64,000 nucleotides of DNA. It comes from Kineothrix sp. IPX-CK (GTDB lineage: Bacteria; Bacillota; Clostridia; Lachnospirales; Lachnospiraceae). Positions 15,206 through 55,091 of the stretch are shown here, one piece after another; the first letter of the stretch is position 1; the number at the start of each line of letters is the position of its first letter. The notes beneath the pieces were generated by a model. That model was not told where the DNA came from, made no database searches, and was given only the letters and a program-made list of their open reading frames with translations. A program made the position numbers and the translations under genes. The stretch spans positions 4,526,001 to 4,590,000 of the forward strand of contig NZ_CP146256.1 of NCBI RefSeq assembly GCF_039134705.1, written 5' to 3'.

Positions 15206-16141
15206 TTACAGTGACCGTAAATAATTCTTTAATATCTCTGCGGGAGATTTCCATCCAAGGGGCCTCATGGGAAAGCGGTTATAATCCCTTGTGTTATAGA
15301 TCTTTAACTGTCTGCCAAAGTCCTCCAATGAGTAGAATCGATGGGTGGCATAAAAGCGTTCATTGTCTTTTCTGTGGCTGCGCTCTACCTTCCCATTATG
15401 TCTTGGAGTGAAGGGACGGATCAACTTATGACGGATGCCATGCTGCTGTAGCCTTACCTGAAAAAGAGTCGGTTTATCGCAACCACCATAAGAAGCAAAC
15501 CGCTTGGTGAATTCCTGCCCATTATCGGTCTGCACACACTCGATGGGTAAGGGAAATGCTTTGATCAGGTGCTCCAAAAACTGTGAGGAAGAATAAGAAC
15601 TGTGTTCTTCAAAGGCTTCCACGAAACGCCATCGGGAGAATTCATCGATGGCTGTGTATTGATAAAAACGCTTCCCTTTGGCATCACCTGTCAGGCAGAC
15701 AGAAGGGACAAATTTGACGTCGATCTGGATGCGCTGTCCGGGATAGCTCATGGCTTCGTAAGGCTTAGGGATGTACTTGGGATTTGGAGGTCTTCGTGCC
15801 AGAATGCCCTGTTTTCTCAGGAAGCGATAGAGTCCGGGGATGGAGCGGGAGTATCCCCGCTGCATGAGCTTGACCCAAAGGACGACCAGTCCGGCATCTG
15901 GATTGCGTCTGCGCATATCCGAAATGAGCTTCCTTTCGGCATCGGTATGCTGGTTGGGGTGATGGTGAGGTTTTCTGGAACGGTCCCTAAGGGATTCGAT
16001 AGAACCATCAAAACGACGTTTCCAACGATAAATATACTGTCTGTTGGTCTTATATCTGACAGCGGCCTTGGAGACACCATACTTATCCGCGTAATGAATG
16101 AGAGATAGACGATACCTCATATCCTGTGTTATACTAGCCAT
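15206..16141 (-). CDS. IS transposase, IS481/IS3-like DDE type
   Basis: A 311-residue transposase. An N-terminal helix-turn-helix (about residues 10-55, DKYGVSKAAVRYKTNRQYIYR) is followed by an rve integrase core: the first Asp in QRIQIDVKFVP, the second in ECVQTDNGQEF and the Glu in HNGKVERSHRKDNE. ATG 16141 is preferred: AAAGGAG lies about 11 nt upstream, while the GTG at 16195 has none. The ribosome site lies in a predicted hairpin formed only on longer transcripts. The gene has no frameshift. Confidence 0.9.
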   Translation of the reverse strand: MASITQDMRYRLSLIHYADKYGVSKAAVRYKTNRQYIYRWKRRFDGSIESLRDRSRKPHHHPNQHTDAERKLISDMRRRNPDAGLVVLWVKLMQRGYSRSIPGLYRFLRKQGILARRPPNPKYIPKPYEAMSYPGQRIQIDVKFVPSVCLTGDAKGKRFYQYTAIDEFSRWRFVEAFEEHSSYSSSQFLEHLIKAFPLPIECVQTDNGQEFTKRFASYGGCDKPTLFQVRLQQHGIRHKLIRPFTPRHNGKVERSHRKDNERFYATHRFYSLEDFGRQLKIYNTRDYNRFPMRPLGWKSPAEILKNYLRSL

Positions 16142-16209
16142 GCGAGAATACGCTCCTTTGTGTAGGTTTTTGTTGTGGTGACTTAAATATAACACAAAAA
16201 GGTATTCTC
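16142..16209 (-). promoter_or_regulatory. Hairpin that can hide the transposase ribosome site
   Basis: On the minus-strand RNA, GCGAGAATAC (16209-16200) pairs perfectly with GTATTCTCGC directly before the ATG, and TTTGTGT pairs with ACACAAA further in. The GGAG of the ribosome site sits in the internal loop between the two stems. A transcript that starts outside the element would fold this way; one starting within it would not. Confidence 0.6.
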
Positions 16210-16253
16210 GCTTTTTATTATTTAGTTTTGTAACATATGTATTGTAATCCTAC

Positions 16254-16281
16254 AACTGAGAATATCCCTGCTGAGAATATT
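16254..16281. repeat. 28-bp direct repeat, right copy, flanking the IS
   Basis: Identical over 28 bp to 15158-15185. It lies between the right end of the insertion element and the stop codon of the GH2 gene at 16286. Confidence 0.92.
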
Positions 16282-16285
16282 TATC

Positions 16286-19200
16286 TTATTCAAACTGAAA
16301 CCATTGAAAATCAAAATTACTTCCGGGCATGAATACAAAGGTTACCTTTTGTCTTCCCGTTATCCTTTCCAGCGCAAAGGTCTGCACCTGGTATTCTCCG
16401 GTTTGTGTGAATTCTACAATCTGTTTACTTTCCTCCGCCCCATTGAAAAATCTTATATGAATGGTGTTGTTTCCGGCAGGCGCCCGCCCGCAGATCGTCA
16501 GGGCTGAAGTTCCTTCTCCTTTAAAGTCCATTTCTTTGAATTCCAGAGAAACATTGTTACCTATTTTTTCTACTGTGTCCGCCGTTTTTACAAAGCTGTC
16601 GCCATAAATAGCGTCCGCTTCCAAAGCTTTTATCTGCGCTCTCGCCTTGTCCGTTCCAGTGAAAGAAAAGCCTTTGATATGAATCTTCTGCCGGACGAGG
16701 AAGCTCAGGGTACTGACTCCTTTTATTCTCCTTTTCAGCTTCCAGATTTCGGGCTGATATACATTCCATATGGAAGGCTTTTGATAGACCTCTTCCGCCA
16801 AAAGCTCACTCCCCTCCTCTCCCGGAACGCCCTCCCAGATTTGGATAGGATATTCCTCCGAACTCAGGGCAAAAATAGGAACCGTAATTTCATCGGAACC
16901 AAAATCTCCGAAGTCAATATCTTCATAGGAAATAACGGTTTCTCCATCCCTTGCTGTGGCTATTCCTCTTTCATTACCATTTCCCGCTTCTCCCTTAACA
17001 GAGGTATAAAGGCTGCCGGATATAAACTCGTAAGGATTCAGGAAGGCTTCTCCCATCCCCTTAATATTAAACTCCAATTGGGAAATAAGTCTCACCTTTT
17101 CCGTTCCGCTCTTCGACATACACCGCAGGCGGAAGGAACCGTCACCTCTCGCCGCTATATGCACCCGGTTCCCTTCCTGCTTAAGCACTGCAAGATTAGT
17201 AGTCACTCCTGAATCGTTTACCGCACGGAAGAAAAGTTCTTTATCTGTGGCATCAGCAGGACAGATGGCAGCCTCCACCCACATTTCTTTTTTATCAGGG
17301 GAAAATACATTCCCCTCAGGAGCAGTCAGAACTATTTTTCTAACCGGTATCTCTTCTTCGCTTCCAAGAACAATAGGATGCTCTTCATTCTCTTCTAAAA
17401 AAACGTGAGCTGACGAATACGAAGTCACCCGAGCTGACGAAGCTGATGTTGTTATTTCCTCTGTTGCTTCACAGATTAGTTCCGCCGGGAGCAAACCTTT
17501 ACCGGAGACCTGCACCTTAATAGCGCCTGACTCCATTTTCGCTCCGACTACCGCCAGAAGCTTACCCTGGAACAGCCGCCTGGATATTCCCTTATAGCTG
17601 TCATAATCGGTACTGTCTCCGTTATCCAGCCCGATCAGCCGTCCGGCGCCTTCTACGCTTACCTTTACTCTGTCCGCCGCATTTTCTACGGGATTGCCCT
17701 TCTTATCCAGCGTACCGATTTCTATGAATAACAAATCTGTGCTGTTTGCCCGAATCCTTGTATTTTCAGCCTTCAATGTCAGACTATGGGAATTGCCGAA
17801 GGATTTTCTGACCTTTACCGCAATAGATTGCCCGTTTTCATCGTAGGCTACCGCCCGAAGTTCTCCTTCTTCATAGAGCACCTGATAATCCGCAATGATA
17901 TGGTTCCCGCTTCCCGGATCATGAGTAAGCTTTTGCCTTCCGAGACTTTTTTCATTCAGGAACAACTCAACCTCAGGCCCGTTGGAGCAGACTCTTACGT
18001 CTATCTGCTGACCGACGTTAAAATCCCAATAAGGAAATATGTGTACCATAGGCGCTTTTTTATGGTCCGTCCACGCAGACTGCCATACGTAATAAGCATC
18101 CTTGGGGAAACCCGCCGTATCCACCTGACCGAAGTAGGAGTTCTTCGTATGATAAGGGGTGGGTTCTCCAATATAATCGAATCCCGTCCATAGAAACTGT
18201 CCCATGGAAAAATCCATATCTCTGTCCAGACATACGCAGTCTTCCATAGATTTGGCACCCCAGCTTGTAGCGCTGTTTCCAAGCGCCGAGCACTGCTCGT
18301 CATCCTCCGCAAGAATGCCTGCCTTTAAGGGAAAATGATACACTCCTCTGCTTTGCACGATAGAAGAGGTCTCACTGCCATAAATCACCCAGTCAGGATG
18401 TTCTTCATGATGCTTCCGATAATATTTTTCAGAATAATTGTATCCGGCCAGCTTTACAATATCCGCACACTTTCTGGCATTTTCCCACGGCATGTAGTTG
18501 GAACCGATGGTGATACCGGCGTTGTGACCAGGGTCGTGGGTATTTACCATTTTCTGTAATTTTCTCGTTATTTCCTGTCCGCGTTTATCAGCATGTGTAT
18601 CATAAATTTCATTTCCGATGCTCCACATAATGACACTTGGATGGTTTCTGTCCCGCTTTACCCAGCTTTGTACGTCTTTCTCGGCCCATTCCGTGAAAAA
18701 TCTGGCGTAATCATAAGTGGTCTTGGAACGTTCCCACATATCGAAGGCTTCGGAAATCACCAGTATACCCATTTCATCCGCAAGGTCCATGAAGCCGGGT
18801 GCCATCATATTATGAGTGCCCCGCACCGCATTGACTCCCATTTCCTTTAATATTCTGAACTTTCTTTCCATGGCACTCTTATTAAAAGCGGCTCCCAGAC
18901 AGCCTAAGTCATGATGCTCACAGACTCCATTCAGCTTGACTTTTCTACCGTTTAAGAAAAATCCTTTGTCAGGATGGAATTCCGGATAACGGAAACCGAA
19001 GCGGATATCCGCCTCCTCCGCGATGATTCCGTCTACCGACAGACTGGTATGAAGCACATAGAGGCAGGGAGACTCTATAGCCCACAGCCTGGGACGTTTT
19101 ACCAAAAACTCCTGCAAGGCATCACCGCCTTCTATGGTATGGAGTGAATTGATAGGAATTTCTGTGCCTTCGAAAAAAAGCTTATGCACAATGTCTACTT

Positions 19201-21818: not shown

Positions 21819-22637
21819 TTATTTGTTTATTTTTTCACCTATACATTCACACAGGAGACGAACATATCCCGGATTAAATTGGGATTGTTCTTCCAATAAT
21901 GTTTGGATGCCGTTTCTTAGATCTTTTGTTTCTTGATTTGAGCTATAAGATGTAATATTATCAACAGCATCCGCTATCATAACTATTTTGGCAAATTCAG
22001 AAATTTCTTTTTCTTTTATTTGATTAGGATATCCGCTCCCATCCATACGTTCGTGATGCTGTAATACGATATCCGCACACTCCTTTGATAAGTTTATTTT
22101 AGTTATCATATCATAACCCAACTCACAATGCTGCTTTACAATGGATTTTTCCTGGTCGCTTAATTTGTCGAAATCCTGTAGTAATCGCTTTGGAATTAGT
22201 AATTTTCCTATATTATGTAATAATGCACCAAGGCAAATTTGATTTTGTTCTCTCTCATTATTTGTTAACTTAATTAACATCATTGTTGAAATTAACGCAA
22301 CATCAATAGAATGGGTATACAACCATTCATCATAATTGCTTAATGTACATATAAGAAACCACCAGGGCTCAGATTTTGAATAAAAAATTTTACTATTTAG
22401 TATGACAGTCGCCTTTTCTATCAGTGCGCTGTCAATATAGGGATATGTTTTTGTGATTTTTTCCGAACATTCTGTTATTGAGATACGTTTATTCAAGTCA
22501 GAGATCTCTTCGTTTTCTGAACCTAAACTTAAACTTTGTAATTTCTGTTCTATATTTCTTGTTATTTTCTGGCCTTTGGCAACCAATAGTACCCCTTTTG
22601 AGTTGTAAATATTCTCTTTTGCAATAATATCTTTCAT
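21819..22637 (-). CDS. HD-GYP domain protein with an altered metal residue
   Basis: A 272-residue protein of the HD-GYP class, whose members normally hydrolyse cyclic di-GMP. The domain spans about residues 100-265: H109, the pair H141-N142 where the family has His-Asp, K145, H170, H194/H195 and DGSGYP at 199-204. The Asp-to-Asn change removes a key metal ligand, so activity may be lost or altered. The N-terminal 90 residues are unassigned. AAAGGAG precedes the ATG. About 300 bp upstream lies the left repeat of a possible invertible segment that carries a strong promoter; inversion would aim that promoter at this gene. Confidence 0.88.
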   Translation of the reverse strand: MKDIIAKENIYNSKGVLLVAKGQKITRNIEQKLQSLSLGSENEEISDLNKRISITECSEKITKTYPYIDSALIEKATVILNSKIFYSKSEPWWFLICTLSNYDEWLYTHSIDVALISTMMLIKLTNNEREQNQICLGALLHNIGKLLIPKRLLQDFDKLSDQEKSIVKQHCELGYDMITKINLSKECADIVLQHHERMDGSGYPNQIKEKEISEFAKIVMIADAVDNITSYSSNQETKDLRNGIQTLLEEQSQFNPGYVRLLCECIGEKINK

Positions 22638-22936
22638 ATTGAATCACTCCTTTCCAAATTATCCAACCACAAGCTCCCAATAAAAATCCAATATAGGTAA
22701 ATGAGTAATTATTACACTGAAGCTTCAAGTATATTTCAAATATAAAAAGCAGCGCCCGCCAAAGGACTAGAAAATTCCAAAAGTCTGCAACACTTGTTCT
22801 GCCGATCAGCCGCCAATACCGCTTGCTTTCTTAAGGAATTTAATATAATTATCATAATTGTTAGCACACTATTTAGACTTCTGAATAAAACAGTCTTTTG
22901 TTAGAAATAATATAATCGTCTATTTTTTTATTCGCG
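22638..22936 (-). promoter_or_regulatory. Long leader between the inverted repeat and the HD-GYP gene
   Basis: About 300 bp without a supported gene and with no clear consensus promoter of its own on the minus strand. I looked for cyclic di-GMP riboswitch landmarks and saw none. A transcript entering from the neighbouring segment would carry all of this as 5' leader. I see no strong terminator that would stop it. Confidence 0.45.
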
Positions 22937-22961
22937 TTTCACAGTATAATCAATACTGCGA
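22937..22961. repeat. 25-bp inverted repeat, left copy (recombination-site candidate)
   Basis: Perfect reverse complement of 24377-24401. The core has short opposing arms CACAGTA and TACTGCG around the asymmetric 7-bp centre TAATCAA, the layout of a tyrosine-recombinase crossover site. The asymmetric centre would give the site a direction. Confidence 0.9.
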
Positions 22962-22993
22962 GATAAATGTATATATCGCTATATTTACACTAT

Positions 22994-24154
22994 CTATTGT
23001 TTATCTTTGACGGCATCATTGACAGCATAAGAAATATTATGCTCACTCAAAACATGTATACTATTTAGTTTATTTATAGCGACTTTTTTATGCTCCATAA
23101 GAGAGTGGGTATAAATGTTCAGAGTAATTGAAACGCTGGAGTGCCCCAATAGTTCGCTGAGAGTTTTAATGTCTACTCCCAGCTCCAATGCCCGAGTTGC
23201 AAACGTATGACGGATCGCATGAAATTTACGTTCCGGCAAGCCTGCATCAGCCAGCTGCTTCTTGTATAAACTTTGAAAAGAACGCGGCTCCATAGGCTCA
23301 TATTGTCCAGAAATAATATAACAACCTTTATCCATGTGGTTCACATCGAATTCATCTGTCATTTTCAATAAAAAATCCGGCATAGGAAGGACACGCATTG
23401 ATTTTTTGCTCTTTGGTGTACGAACCGTCAGCGCTGTTTTTGGTTTTTCAGGATCAAAACACCTTATTCTTGAAACAGTCCGCAAAATTGATATAGTTCC
23501 GGCTTCGATGTCAATATCGCTCCATTTCAGTGCACAAAGCTCACCAAGTCGTATTCCTGTGTAGAAGCACAGTAAAATACCGAGAGCACGCTTGTCCTGC
23601 GAATGAAGGATTGTTGTCTCCAGCTCTTGCTGCTCCTTAATAGAAAAGATTTTGATTTCTTTATCTTCTATTTTTGGAATCTTAATATAAGCTAACAAAG
23701 ATAACTGCTCCGGCTTCATTGCCAGCACTTCTTTTAACGCTCTTTTAAATATGATAAGATTTTTTTTCTTGGAAGAATCCGAAATATCTGCACTCCATAT
23801 ATATTTTATAAAATTGCAAACAGATTCTTCCGTGATATATCTGTTTTCAGTTTTCTGAAAAAATGGAATAACATAATTTTGAACACAAAAAAAATAACTC
23901 TCATAAGTGGAGGGTTTTACCTGAAAACAAATTTCACCTTTTATCCATTGCTCAAACAATTCCGAAGCATTCTCCGGCCGGCTGACAGATTGCACCTTGC
24001 ATGGAATTTTCAAGACTAGAAAATCCTTCATTTTCATTCGAACCGCCTTGTAAGTTTTTGCATAAAAATACTTAAATGTTCCATCTGAACGACGTATCCT
24101 CCCTTCCCATCGCCCATCTTTTCTTTTGTAGATATTCTCGCCTTTTCGCGCCAT
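22994..24154 (-). CDS. Tyrosine recombinase inside the inverted-repeat segment
   Basis: A 386-residue site-specific recombinase. The N-terminal residues 1-50 resemble the AP2-like arm-binding domain (KRKDGRWEGRIRRSDGTF). The core-binding SAM-like domain covers about 60-150 and the catalytic domain 165-365. The catalytic set is complete: R202, K250, H312, R315, H338 and nucleophile Y348 (LNIYTHS). AAAGGAG precedes the ATG. No phage, conjugation or excisionase gene accompanies it. Its position between perfect inverted repeats suggests a DNA invertase more than an integrase. No terminator lies after its stop, so read-through toward the HD-GYP gene is possible in the present orientation. Confidence 0.9.
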   Translation of the reverse strand: MARKGENIYKRKDGRWEGRIRRSDGTFKYFYAKTYKAVRMKMKDFLVLKIPCKVQSVSRPENASELFEQWIKGEICFQVKPSTYESYFFCVQNYVIPFFQKTENRYITEESVCNFIKYIWSADISDSSKKKNLIIFKRALKEVLAMKPEQLSLLAYIKIPKIEDKEIKIFSIKEQQELETTILHSQDKRALGILLCFYTGIRLGELCALKWSDIDIEAGTISILRTVSRIRCFDPEKPKTALTVRTPKSKKSMRVLPMPDFLLKMTDEFDVNHMDKGCYIISGQYEPMEPRSFQSLYKKQLADAGLPERKFHAIRHTFATRALELGVDIKTLSELLGHSSVSITLNIYTHSLMEHKKVAINKLNSIHVLSEHNISYAVNDAVKDKQ

Positions 24155-24318
24155 TATACTACTCCTTTCTGTAATGTCAAATTCGTGTGCTATGACGATT
24201 TTTCTGACGGTTTATTTATAGAAATCGTTTGAAAAGCGCCAGACATATTATATAACATGAGCCATTTAAAAACTAATCCCCTTATTTTTTTGCGAAATCC
24301 TCTGATATAAACAGATAA

Positions 24319-24348
24319 TTGACAAAAAATACCCTATTCATGTATAAT
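24319..24348 (+). promoter_or_regulatory. Consensus promoter pointing out of the segment
   Basis: TTGACA (24319-24324) and TATAAT (24343-24348) are perfect hexamers separated by 18 bp. It reads rightward through the right inverted repeat into the terminator at 24402-24437 and has no gene to drive in this orientation. This makes sense as a switchable promoter parked in the OFF position. Confidence 0.8.
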
Positions 24349-24376
24349 AATATGTAGTAAAAATAGAATTCTGGTA

Positions 24377-24401
24377 TCGCAGTATTGATTATACTGTGAA
24401 A
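24377..24401. repeat. 25-bp inverted repeat, right copy (recombination-site candidate)
   Basis: Perfect reverse complement of 22937-22961, starting TCGCAGTATTG. Its outer three bases merge with the T-run of the adjoining terminator. Confidence 0.9.
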
Positions 24402-24437
24402 AAAATGCCTCTTTACTTTCTTGTAAAGAGGCATTTT
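24402..24437. terminator. Bidirectional terminator abutting the right inverted repeat
   Basis: A perfect 15-bp stem, arms AAAATGCCTCTTTAC and GTAAAGAGGCATTTT with a 6-base loop, with T-rich DNA on both sides. It ends LysR transcripts on the minus strand and would stop the outward promoter of the recombinase segment on the plus strand. Confidence 0.9.
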
Positions 24438-24518
24438 TATGAGTTTATATTAAGAATAAATATACATTTTCATAGTCATTATAAAAATACAAGAGCAACA
24501 ACCTGATATATCTTTAAA

Positions 24519-25427
24519 CTACATCAAGCCGCCGGTATACTTTTTTAATGATTCCATATATGCTTTTCCATATCTGCTCAGTGCCATATTTTTCTGCGTA
24601 ATCGTTCCGATTGTCATATACTCGTCCACCTGAAGGGATTTGGCAATAATCTGCTCTCCATTCAGCTCTTTGCTGATCACTCCGGAACTGACAGTATATC
24701 CGTTCAAACCTATTACCAGATTAAATAAGGTAGCTCTGTCCCTGACCTTAATATTCCTGCTTCTGTCTAAAGTGCTTAGAATTTCCTCGGAGAAGTAAAA
24801 GGAATTATAATCTCCCTGCTCAAAGGAAAGGTACGGGTATTGCTCTAAATCTTCCAAGGTCAAAATTTCTTTTACCGAAAGCGGATGCCTTGAGGAAATA
24901 AAGACATGAGGGGCCGCCGTAAATAGTTCTTCGAACTTCAAACCGTACTGTTTTATAAGCTTGTCAATGATTTCTTCATTCTTAGAAGATTTGTATAATA
25001 TTCCGATTTCGCTTTTCAGCCGGCTTATATCTTCAATAATTTCATATGTTTGTGTTTCCCGCAAGGTAAAGTCATATTTTTCTCCGCCGAATTCACGGAT
25101 AACATCCACAAAAGCGTTAACCGCAAAAGAATAATGCTGGCATGATACGGAAAACCGGGGGCTTTGCTCCTTCACATGCAGAAACTTTTCCTCCAAAAGG
25201 TTCGCCTGCTCCAGAACTTGTCTGGCATAAGCCAGAAACACATCCCCTTCATTTGAGACAGCAACTCCCTTATTGGTTCTATTAAATATGGTTACCTGCA
25301 TTTCTTTCTCTAATTCATGAATTGCATTGGTCAGACTGGGTTGGGAAACGAAAAGCTGTTTTGCAGCCTCCGTAATATTTCCCGTTTCTGCTACCGTTAC
25401 TATATACTTCAACTGTTGTAGGGTCAT
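24519..25427 (-). CDS. LysR-family transcriptional regulator
   Basis: A 302-residue regulator. The winged helix at residues 1-60 (MTLQQLKYIVTVAETGNITEAAKQLFVSQPSLTNAIHELE) is typical, followed by a two-lobed effector domain at about 90-290. GGAGGAATTGGT precedes the ATG. It lies 33 bp downstream of the S-component gene in the same orientation and ends in the strong terminator at 24402-24437. It may control the DUF4430/S-component genes, but LysR targets are often divergent and none is here. Confidence 0.88.
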   Translation of the reverse strand: MTLQQLKYIVTVAETGNITEAAKQLFVSQPSLTNAIHELEKEMQVTIFNRTNKGVAVSNEGDVFLAYARQVLEQANLLEEKFLHVKEQSPRFSVSCQHYSFAVNAFVDVIREFGGEKYDFTLRETQTYEIIEDISRLKSEIGILYKSSKNEEIIDKLIKQYGLKFEELFTAAPHVFISSRHPLSVKEILTLEDLEQYPYLSFEQGDYNSFYFSEEILSTLDRSRNIKVRDRATLFNLVIGLNGYTVSSGVISKELNGEQIIAKSLQVDEYMTIGTITQKNMALSRYGKAYMESLKKYTGGLM

Positions 25428-54990: not shown

Positions 54991-55091
54991 TCAAAAGTCG
55001 TTTCTGTTAACTTTATGAGGCAATAGGACCAAAGCAGGAGTCTTTCTGCTTTGGTCCTATTGCCTCATAGATTATAAAACATGACTTTTGA
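54991..55091. repeat. Long palindrome with a perfect 24-bp stem
   Basis: At 55014-55069 two 24-bp arms starting TATGAGGCAATAGG are perfectly complementary around an 8-base loop. Outside them TCAAAAGTC and GACTTTTGA extend the symmetry to about 100 bp, with a mismatched middle zone. It lies between the Xre control region and the YibE/F gene end and could terminate both ways, or be a small mobile repeat. The remaining gap to 55186 shows no gene. Confidence 0.8.

Follow-up and report, generated by a model that had tools for sequence, protein, structure and literature searches.

A 1.47-kb segment of the Kineothrix sp. IPX-CK chromosome, at positions 22937-24401 of the 64,000-nt stretch of DNA analysed here (the window), is probably a self-contained invertible-promoter cassette that was sequenced in its OFF orientation, judging from its repeats, promoter pattern, hairpin and gene order, from the architecture of the family to which it belongs, and from the assemblies of two relatives in which both junctions appear. 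The segment encodes a recombinase that would recombine the two flanking sites and thereby turn the segment over, including the recombinase gene and a sigma-A promoter that points outward. As sequenced, this promoter would fire rightward into a bidirectional terminator, and for that reason the neighbouring HD-GYP gene is predicted to be OFF. Once the segment has turned round, transcription from this promoter would instead cross the left site in the leftward direction and, after a leader of about 350 nt, enter the HD-GYP gene, switching it ON. A self-contained inversion switch had already been proposed in the first-pass annotation of this locus and is still the best reading, and assemblies of two relatives (G300 and G918) contain such cassettes joined both ways; but that annotation had noted neither the promoter that points outward nor the terminator, the HD-GYP target or the existence of a family. 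The coordinates of these features are collected in Table 1.

Table 1. Features of the proposed switch and its surroundings, in window coordinates
Feature	Position	Strand	Source
HD-GYP-type gene, proposed target	21819-22637	-	ORF list, Pfam
Stretch between left arm and HD-GYP gene, 299 bp	22638-22936	-	Promoter/terminator scan
Left putative crossover site, inverted repeat arm TTTCACAGTATAATCAATACTGCGA	22937-22961	+	Repeat search, genome site count
Tyrosine recombinase gene (product of 386 aa), enclosed by the two arms	22994-24154	-	ORF list, Pfam
Non-coding stretch upstream of the recombinase, 222 bp, bearing the outward promoter-like site	24155-24376	.	Locus analysis
Outward promoter-like site TTGACA-N18-TATAAT	24319-24348	+	Pattern scan, family statistics
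Right putative crossover site, exact reverse complement of the left	24377-24401	-	Repeat search, genome site count
Hairpin with T-runs on both strands, proposed bidirectional terminator	24401-24438	.	Hairpin scan, sequence

Like an inverton, the segment is bounded by inverted repeats. An inverted-repeat search confirmed that the two ends are exact reverse complements, with arms of 25 nt, 100% complementary and 1415 nt apart. By chance, base composition would give about 2e-8 perfect 25-bp pairs in a stretch of 2465 bp, and 2e-6 across the window as a whole. Even with up to 3 mismatches allowed, the site is found just twice in the single-contig genome of 4,723,253 bases, at the two ends of the segment. 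The short opposed arms around a 7-bp centre that had been read within each repeat are recovered when the arms are taken as 5 bp long; with 6-bp arms, CAGTAT/ATACTG, the centre becomes AATCA. Comparable repeats are absent around the five other integrase genes of the genome (assessed via L002-L005 and L008), where the best scores were 9.5-12.5 vs 25 for the segment. Elsewhere in the window, the sole other perfect inverted repeat (at least 18 bp, spacing within 5 kb) is a 24-bp hairpin with an 8-nt loop at 55014-55069.

The gene enclosed by the repeats matches Phage_integrase in Pfam (E 1.5e-27). Between the end of its ORF and the left arm there are 32 bp, and between its start and the right arm 222 bp, all non-coding, so that by layout the recombinase gene lies within the segment it would invert, as in Hin-type switches, and we infer that the enzyme acts on the two sites beside it. 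The earlier claim that all catalytic residues are present holds insofar as six residues, R202, K248, H312, R315, H338 and Y348, are invariant across 20 aligned family members; these are presumably the catalytic ones.

Among solved structures, the closest to the recombinase include an 'Int protein', 6en0 (E 1.4e-31), presumably the Int of Tn1549, together with phage integrases. Relatives at 33-37% identity are also encoded in five phage records (H21-H25, uncultured 'Bacteriophage sp.' from human faeces). These matches could be taken to mean that the gene is the leftover integrase of an integrative element or phage, and the repeats parts of attachment sites that have no regulatory role, a reading we regard as extremely improbable. 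Integrated elements have directly repeated attachment sites and would be accompanied by transfer or phage genes, whereas the repeats in the window are inverted and no excisionase, relaxase or phage domain was found among the 8 proteins tested; moreover, the same order of promoter, terminator and target recurs at unrelated loci, as described below. The same Pfam scan of the recombinase and its 7 neighbours found no phage structural or conjugation domain, in agreement with the earlier statement that no such genes accompany it. Integrases of the Tn1549/Tn916 type do belong to the same superfamily, and 6en0 is the best sequence match among solved structures, but those enzymes move elements, whereas here there are inverted sites, a segment of 1.47 kb and no transfer gene among the 8 proteins.

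The invertible-promoter reading depends on what lies at either border. Just inside the right repeat is a promoter-like site that matches the consensus at 12 of 12 positions, with its -10 element ending 28 bp short of the arm. As a sequence pattern, this is an internal promoter directed outward to one border of the segment, at present toward the putative terminator. The latter lies between the LysR gene and the segment as a hairpin with a 12-bp stem (24405-24416/24423-24434; positions 2905-2942 of L001 for the whole feature). It would also terminate the LysR gene arriving from the opposite side. The hairpin was not listed by the promoter/terminator scan, whose rule requires a T-run after the stem, and a sub-threshold Rfam match to RefA9 extends over it. 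On the far side of the segment, the stretch leading from the left arm to the HD-GYP gene contains no minus-strand sigma-70-like site of at least 9/12 in the pattern scan and no leader riboswitch family in Rfam. It does contain one weak hairpin, at 22748-22760, and the scanned region has 2 terminator-like sites vs 0.8 expected.

The HD-GYP gene is the first gene to the left of the left arm, with its 5' end facing the arm across a gap of 299 bp, and is presumably the gene that the switch regulates. Its product has HNIGK in place of HDIGK, which replaces a metal-ligand Asp with Asn. Among 120 listed relatives of the protein, HD is found in 104 and HN in one (P0121), the remaining 15 showing no match or another residue; the motif suggests that the metal ligand may have been lost and phosphodiesterase activity may be absent. 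That cassette and HD-GYP gene form a recurrent pair is not supported: no match to the gene was found at E 1e-25 in 15 genus-mates, and three loci with HD-GYP relatives (L102-L104) have no recombinase in flanks of about 1.5 kb.

Some of the history of the locus can be read from a sister genome (G299), in which the LysR gene is 96% identical and a 2.7-kb stretch comprising the recombinase and HD-GYP genes is missing. The gene that follows LysR is metE-like, by eye, in two other genomes (G304 and G308), another gene in G299, and the cassette with HD-GYP here; recombinase matches in genus-mates are at best 40% identical. The switch and its target may have come together. Absence of this stretch from the sister genome is also what one would expect if the repeats were the terminal inverted repeats of a small transposon-like element moved by the tyrosine recombinase. 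We consider such an element very improbable and have rejected a terminal-repeat transposon, since homology with the sister genome resumes at 21819, the end of the HD-GYP gene, and at 24520, the end of the LysR gene, rather than stopping at the arms. Nor is any target duplication visible next to the arms, and the genome has one pair of sites, with relatives bearing other sites at other loci. Farther off in the window, a transposase gene with an rve domain in Pfam (15206-16195, minus strand) lies beside TetR-like and ABC-like genes identified by eye, and bases 16251-16290 match the sister genome near a truncated esterase gene of that genome.

Related recombinases are flanked by repeats at many other loci. 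In a first set of 43 loci, clear flanking repeats (a repeat score of at least 18.5, and better than 30 shuffles) were found at 22 and were missing from 21, some of which are at contig ends (L036, L042 and L043, where repeats could not be judged). This set includes the 5 other integrases of the window's genome and omits L006, L007 and L009 as second gene pieces, and its positives count two copies in one genome (L041 and L047, in G300). A second set gave flanking repeats at 16 of 29 loci, made up of 6/9 and 10/20 in its two batches, with 10 of the 29 lacking clear repeats. The negatives are L093, L097 and L098 in the smaller batch and seven loci in the larger, including L108, which is cut by a contig end; also in the larger batch, L107 was dropped for a long inverted gene duplication and L122 and L130 were left unassessed. 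L099 and L110 are one locus in two near-identical genomes. On plasmids, where searches had listed 18 and 14 places, 9 of the 11 fetched have repeats that score at least 16 and beat the null. Homologous recombinases without repeats at their borders had been named as a sign against the switch, and on this point the outcome is mixed.

At many of these loci the site has, by eye, the form TTTCGYAGA-spacer-TCTRCGAAA, with a spacer that is locus-specific but common to the pair. Mismatches between paired arms increase with distance from the dyad centre, from 1 of 290 cells at up to 3 bp to 25 of 410 at 4-8 bp and 67 of 321 at 9-12 bp, a pattern of low core mismatch that the seed-based repeat search somewhat favours. 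Mismatches outside the core are expected if strand exchange requires an identical core. A different layout also occurs within the same recombinase family: at two loci, small inverted-repeat segments lie beside the recombinase rather than around it (L178:3654-4066, about 0.4 kb, and L086:7-160, about 0.15 kb).

The placement of the promoter is likewise a property of the family. It was assessed in 41 repeat-flanked loci, after exclusion of L041/L047 (N gap), L107, the near-duplicates L110, L154, L155 and L159, and the later additions L165, L166 and L174-L176. In 28 of the 41, the distance between the best outward promoter and the arm on its side was 20-40 bp, as against a mean of 4.1 and a maximum of 10 such loci in 200 shuffles, and in 11 this promoter was a perfect 12/12 match, as against a shuffle maximum of 1. 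An inward control, taken from the recombinase start, gave 3 in range and 0 perfect, and a reversed control 1 and 0. At the other 13 loci the best outward match is elsewhere or missing. Several single promoter scores (e.g. at L019, L023, L029, L038 and L039) are no better than shuffles. Terminator-like hairpins within 160 bp outside the arm are found on the promoter side in 17 of 41 loci and on the other side in 2 (L017 and L025), a comparison between sides with no shuffle control. Both L017 and L025 have a nearby ORF that faces the cassette from the promoter side, which is the ON arrangement, and both look ON; L017 has a further facing ORF behind the terminator, and at L025 the contig ends beyond the other arm. 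With ORFs of at least 70 aa called mechanically, the closest one past the other arm is on the same strand as the recombinase in 38 of 39 cases, and on the promoter side 17 ORFs face the cassette and 23 do not.

These family data also bear on the polarity of the switch. Recombinase and target are encoded on the same strand, and 39 of the 41 loci have no terminator-like hairpin within 160 bp past the arm on that side; the present orientation could be the ON state, with read-through from the recombinase gene into the HD-GYP gene and inversion turning the target OFF. No convincing promoter for the recombinase gene itself was found. The 12/12 pattern that might drive such read-through, TTGACA-16-TATAAT (24180-24153, minus strand), runs across the start codon of the recombinase gene, and it was set aside as the recombinase promoter because its transcript would miss that codon. 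Across the family, it is instead the outward promoter beside the arm that recurs. The opposite polarity is for these reasons quite unlikely, and we retain the assignment of the sequenced orientation as OFF.

The genes next to the family's cassettes are diverse. By Pfam or annotation they include a chemoreceptor (L030), CpsB (L039), PP2C (L018), FHA (L019), a LytTR regulator (L020), PqqD with a radical SAM protein (L025) and TnpB-like genes (L014 and L038). In enterococci the neighbours are accessory Sec and WxL operons, the repeat score at the WxL locus (L157) being only 13. A TnpB-like gene starts about 50 bp past the non-promoter arm at L062 (8076-9428), at L080 (8301-9656) and, by similarity, at L083; those at L062 and L080 match Cas12f1-like_TNB in Pfam, and the TnpB-like protein is possibly phase-variable at all three loci. 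In another genome (G222), an rRNA adenine dimethylase gene (Pfam; L061:8740-9477) lies 450 bp beyond a cassette arm, on the strand of the recombinase.

Direct signs of inversion come from the assemblies of two relatives. One cassette of G300 has its promoter end attached to two flanks that differ: a hairpin is seen by eye in one, and in the other an ORF starts about 40 bp past the arm. Each copy breaks off exactly at the final base of the other arm, next to a gap of 200 N, and the arrangement could be a true inverted duplication around that gap. G918 has a contig of 3113 bp with a 16-bp arm at each end. With up to 1 mismatch allowed, this arm recurs at only two other places, as the terminal 16 bp of contig C9 and the initial 16 bp of contig C21. 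On C9 a minus-strand ORF begins 30-50 bp from the arm; the contig additionally carries TTGACA-17-TATAAT about 10 bp inside the arm. An assembly should not break at a repeat of 16 bp alone, which is far below read length, but would be expected to do so if both orientations were present among the sequenced cells. This signature was seen in 1 of 17 fetched regions, most of them picked for a recombinase near a contig end. The 3.1-kb cassette of G918 also has extra cargo (L165:1798-2910), two adjacent ORFs that by eye may be one interrupted acetyltransferase-like gene. Contig breaks near cassettes were considered as a general sign of inversion and rejected, with 4 of 29 cassettes within 700 bp of a contig end vs 2.2 expected, two of the four (L165 and L166) having been fetched because they were at ends.

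The first-pass annotation had suggested comparing related genomes, and no flip was found in the 18 informative pairs: 0 of 11 among relatives (8 with repeats; 4 of 15 pairs uninformative) and 0 of 7 among Enterococcus raffinosus loci (8 of 15 uninformative). The window's own genome has one orientation in its assembly. In relatives, both orientations are implied by the two assemblies described above; from the 0 flips in 18 pairs, flipping is rare, strongly biased to OFF, or locked or lost in many copies. The last of these possibilities could apply to the cassette in the window, as a former switch whose sites and promoter persist while inversion has become absent or very rare. The uniform orientation in 18 of 18 pairs is consistent with such locking, as are the HN motif of the target and the single in-frame stop in the recombinase at three repeat-flanked loci (L094, L100 and L101), whose cassettes are candidates for locked switches. 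In the window, however, the recombinase is full length with its invariant residues, and the 25-bp arms are perfect where unselected arms should drift. Locking of the window copy is unlikely on this evidence; the cassette presumably still flips, with OFF predominating.

How the proposed switch relates to known systems is clearest for Salmonella Hin. There, the recombinase gene and an outward promoter lie inside an invertible segment between inverted sites, and the orientation of the promoter sets the expression of the neighbouring operon. The Kineothrix segment shares this arrangement of recombinase and outward promoter between inverted sites, but it differs in site architecture and in having a tyrosine recombinase where Hin is a serine recombinase. 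The first-pass description of a Hin layout with another class of enzyme is borne out, the gene lying inside the segment and its domain match being to Phage_integrase. Hin is itself named as the example of a recombinase within its own segment (PMC5903667).

Among the Clostridia, the nearest comparison is inverton group 139, described in PMC11892184 as 33 invertons, 32 of them from Clostridia, that were detected from sequencing reads. Nearly all have a nearby gene of one group of tyrosine-type recombinases/integrases, invertase group 35, and this recombinase family is enriched there among non-regulatable, hence non-intersecting, neighbours (PMC11892184). The recombinase would thus lie beside the inverton in group 139, whereas it lies inside the segment here; two loci of the present family, L178 and L086, have the beside-layout. 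Another related case is the pdcB switch of Clostridioides difficile, where an invertible promoter stands before the gene of a c-di-GMP phosphodiesterase and the abstract places no recombinase inside the switch (PMC9286219); here the recombinase is internal, and the target is of HD-GYP type with an HN motif. The words recombinase, integrase, Firmicutes and Lachnospir do not occur in the text of PMC10939037. The literature covered, mostly as titles and abstract openings, contained no description of a tyrosine recombinase and an outward promoter inside their own inverton in Clostridia. What seems new is a whole family that combines the layout of Hin with a tyrosine recombinase; invertible promoters themselves are already known.

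On balance, we favour the view that the window holds one member of a widespread, portable, self-contained phase-switch cassette of Clostridia and enterococci, which has been put before unrelated operons, can travel with its target, and is mostly OFF, both in cells and in nearly all sequenced genomes. Within about 1.4 kb it would combine a tyrosine recombinase, two private sites and a strong promoter directed outward. The operons concerned would be those for HD-GYP, chemoreceptor, EPS, FHA + PP2C systems, LytTR regulators, PqqD-radical SAM, accessory Sec and TnpB-like genes. Lone 'site-specific integrase' genes in Clostridia are easily taken for relics of mobile elements, and the architecture of arm, outward promoter and terminator lets a set of such genes be read as phase switches, with their targets named. 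Each switch having its own recombinase and site, the family is a possible set of independent inversion tools. The same architecture makes it a testable question why nearly all of the sequenced copies examined aim their promoter away from the target.
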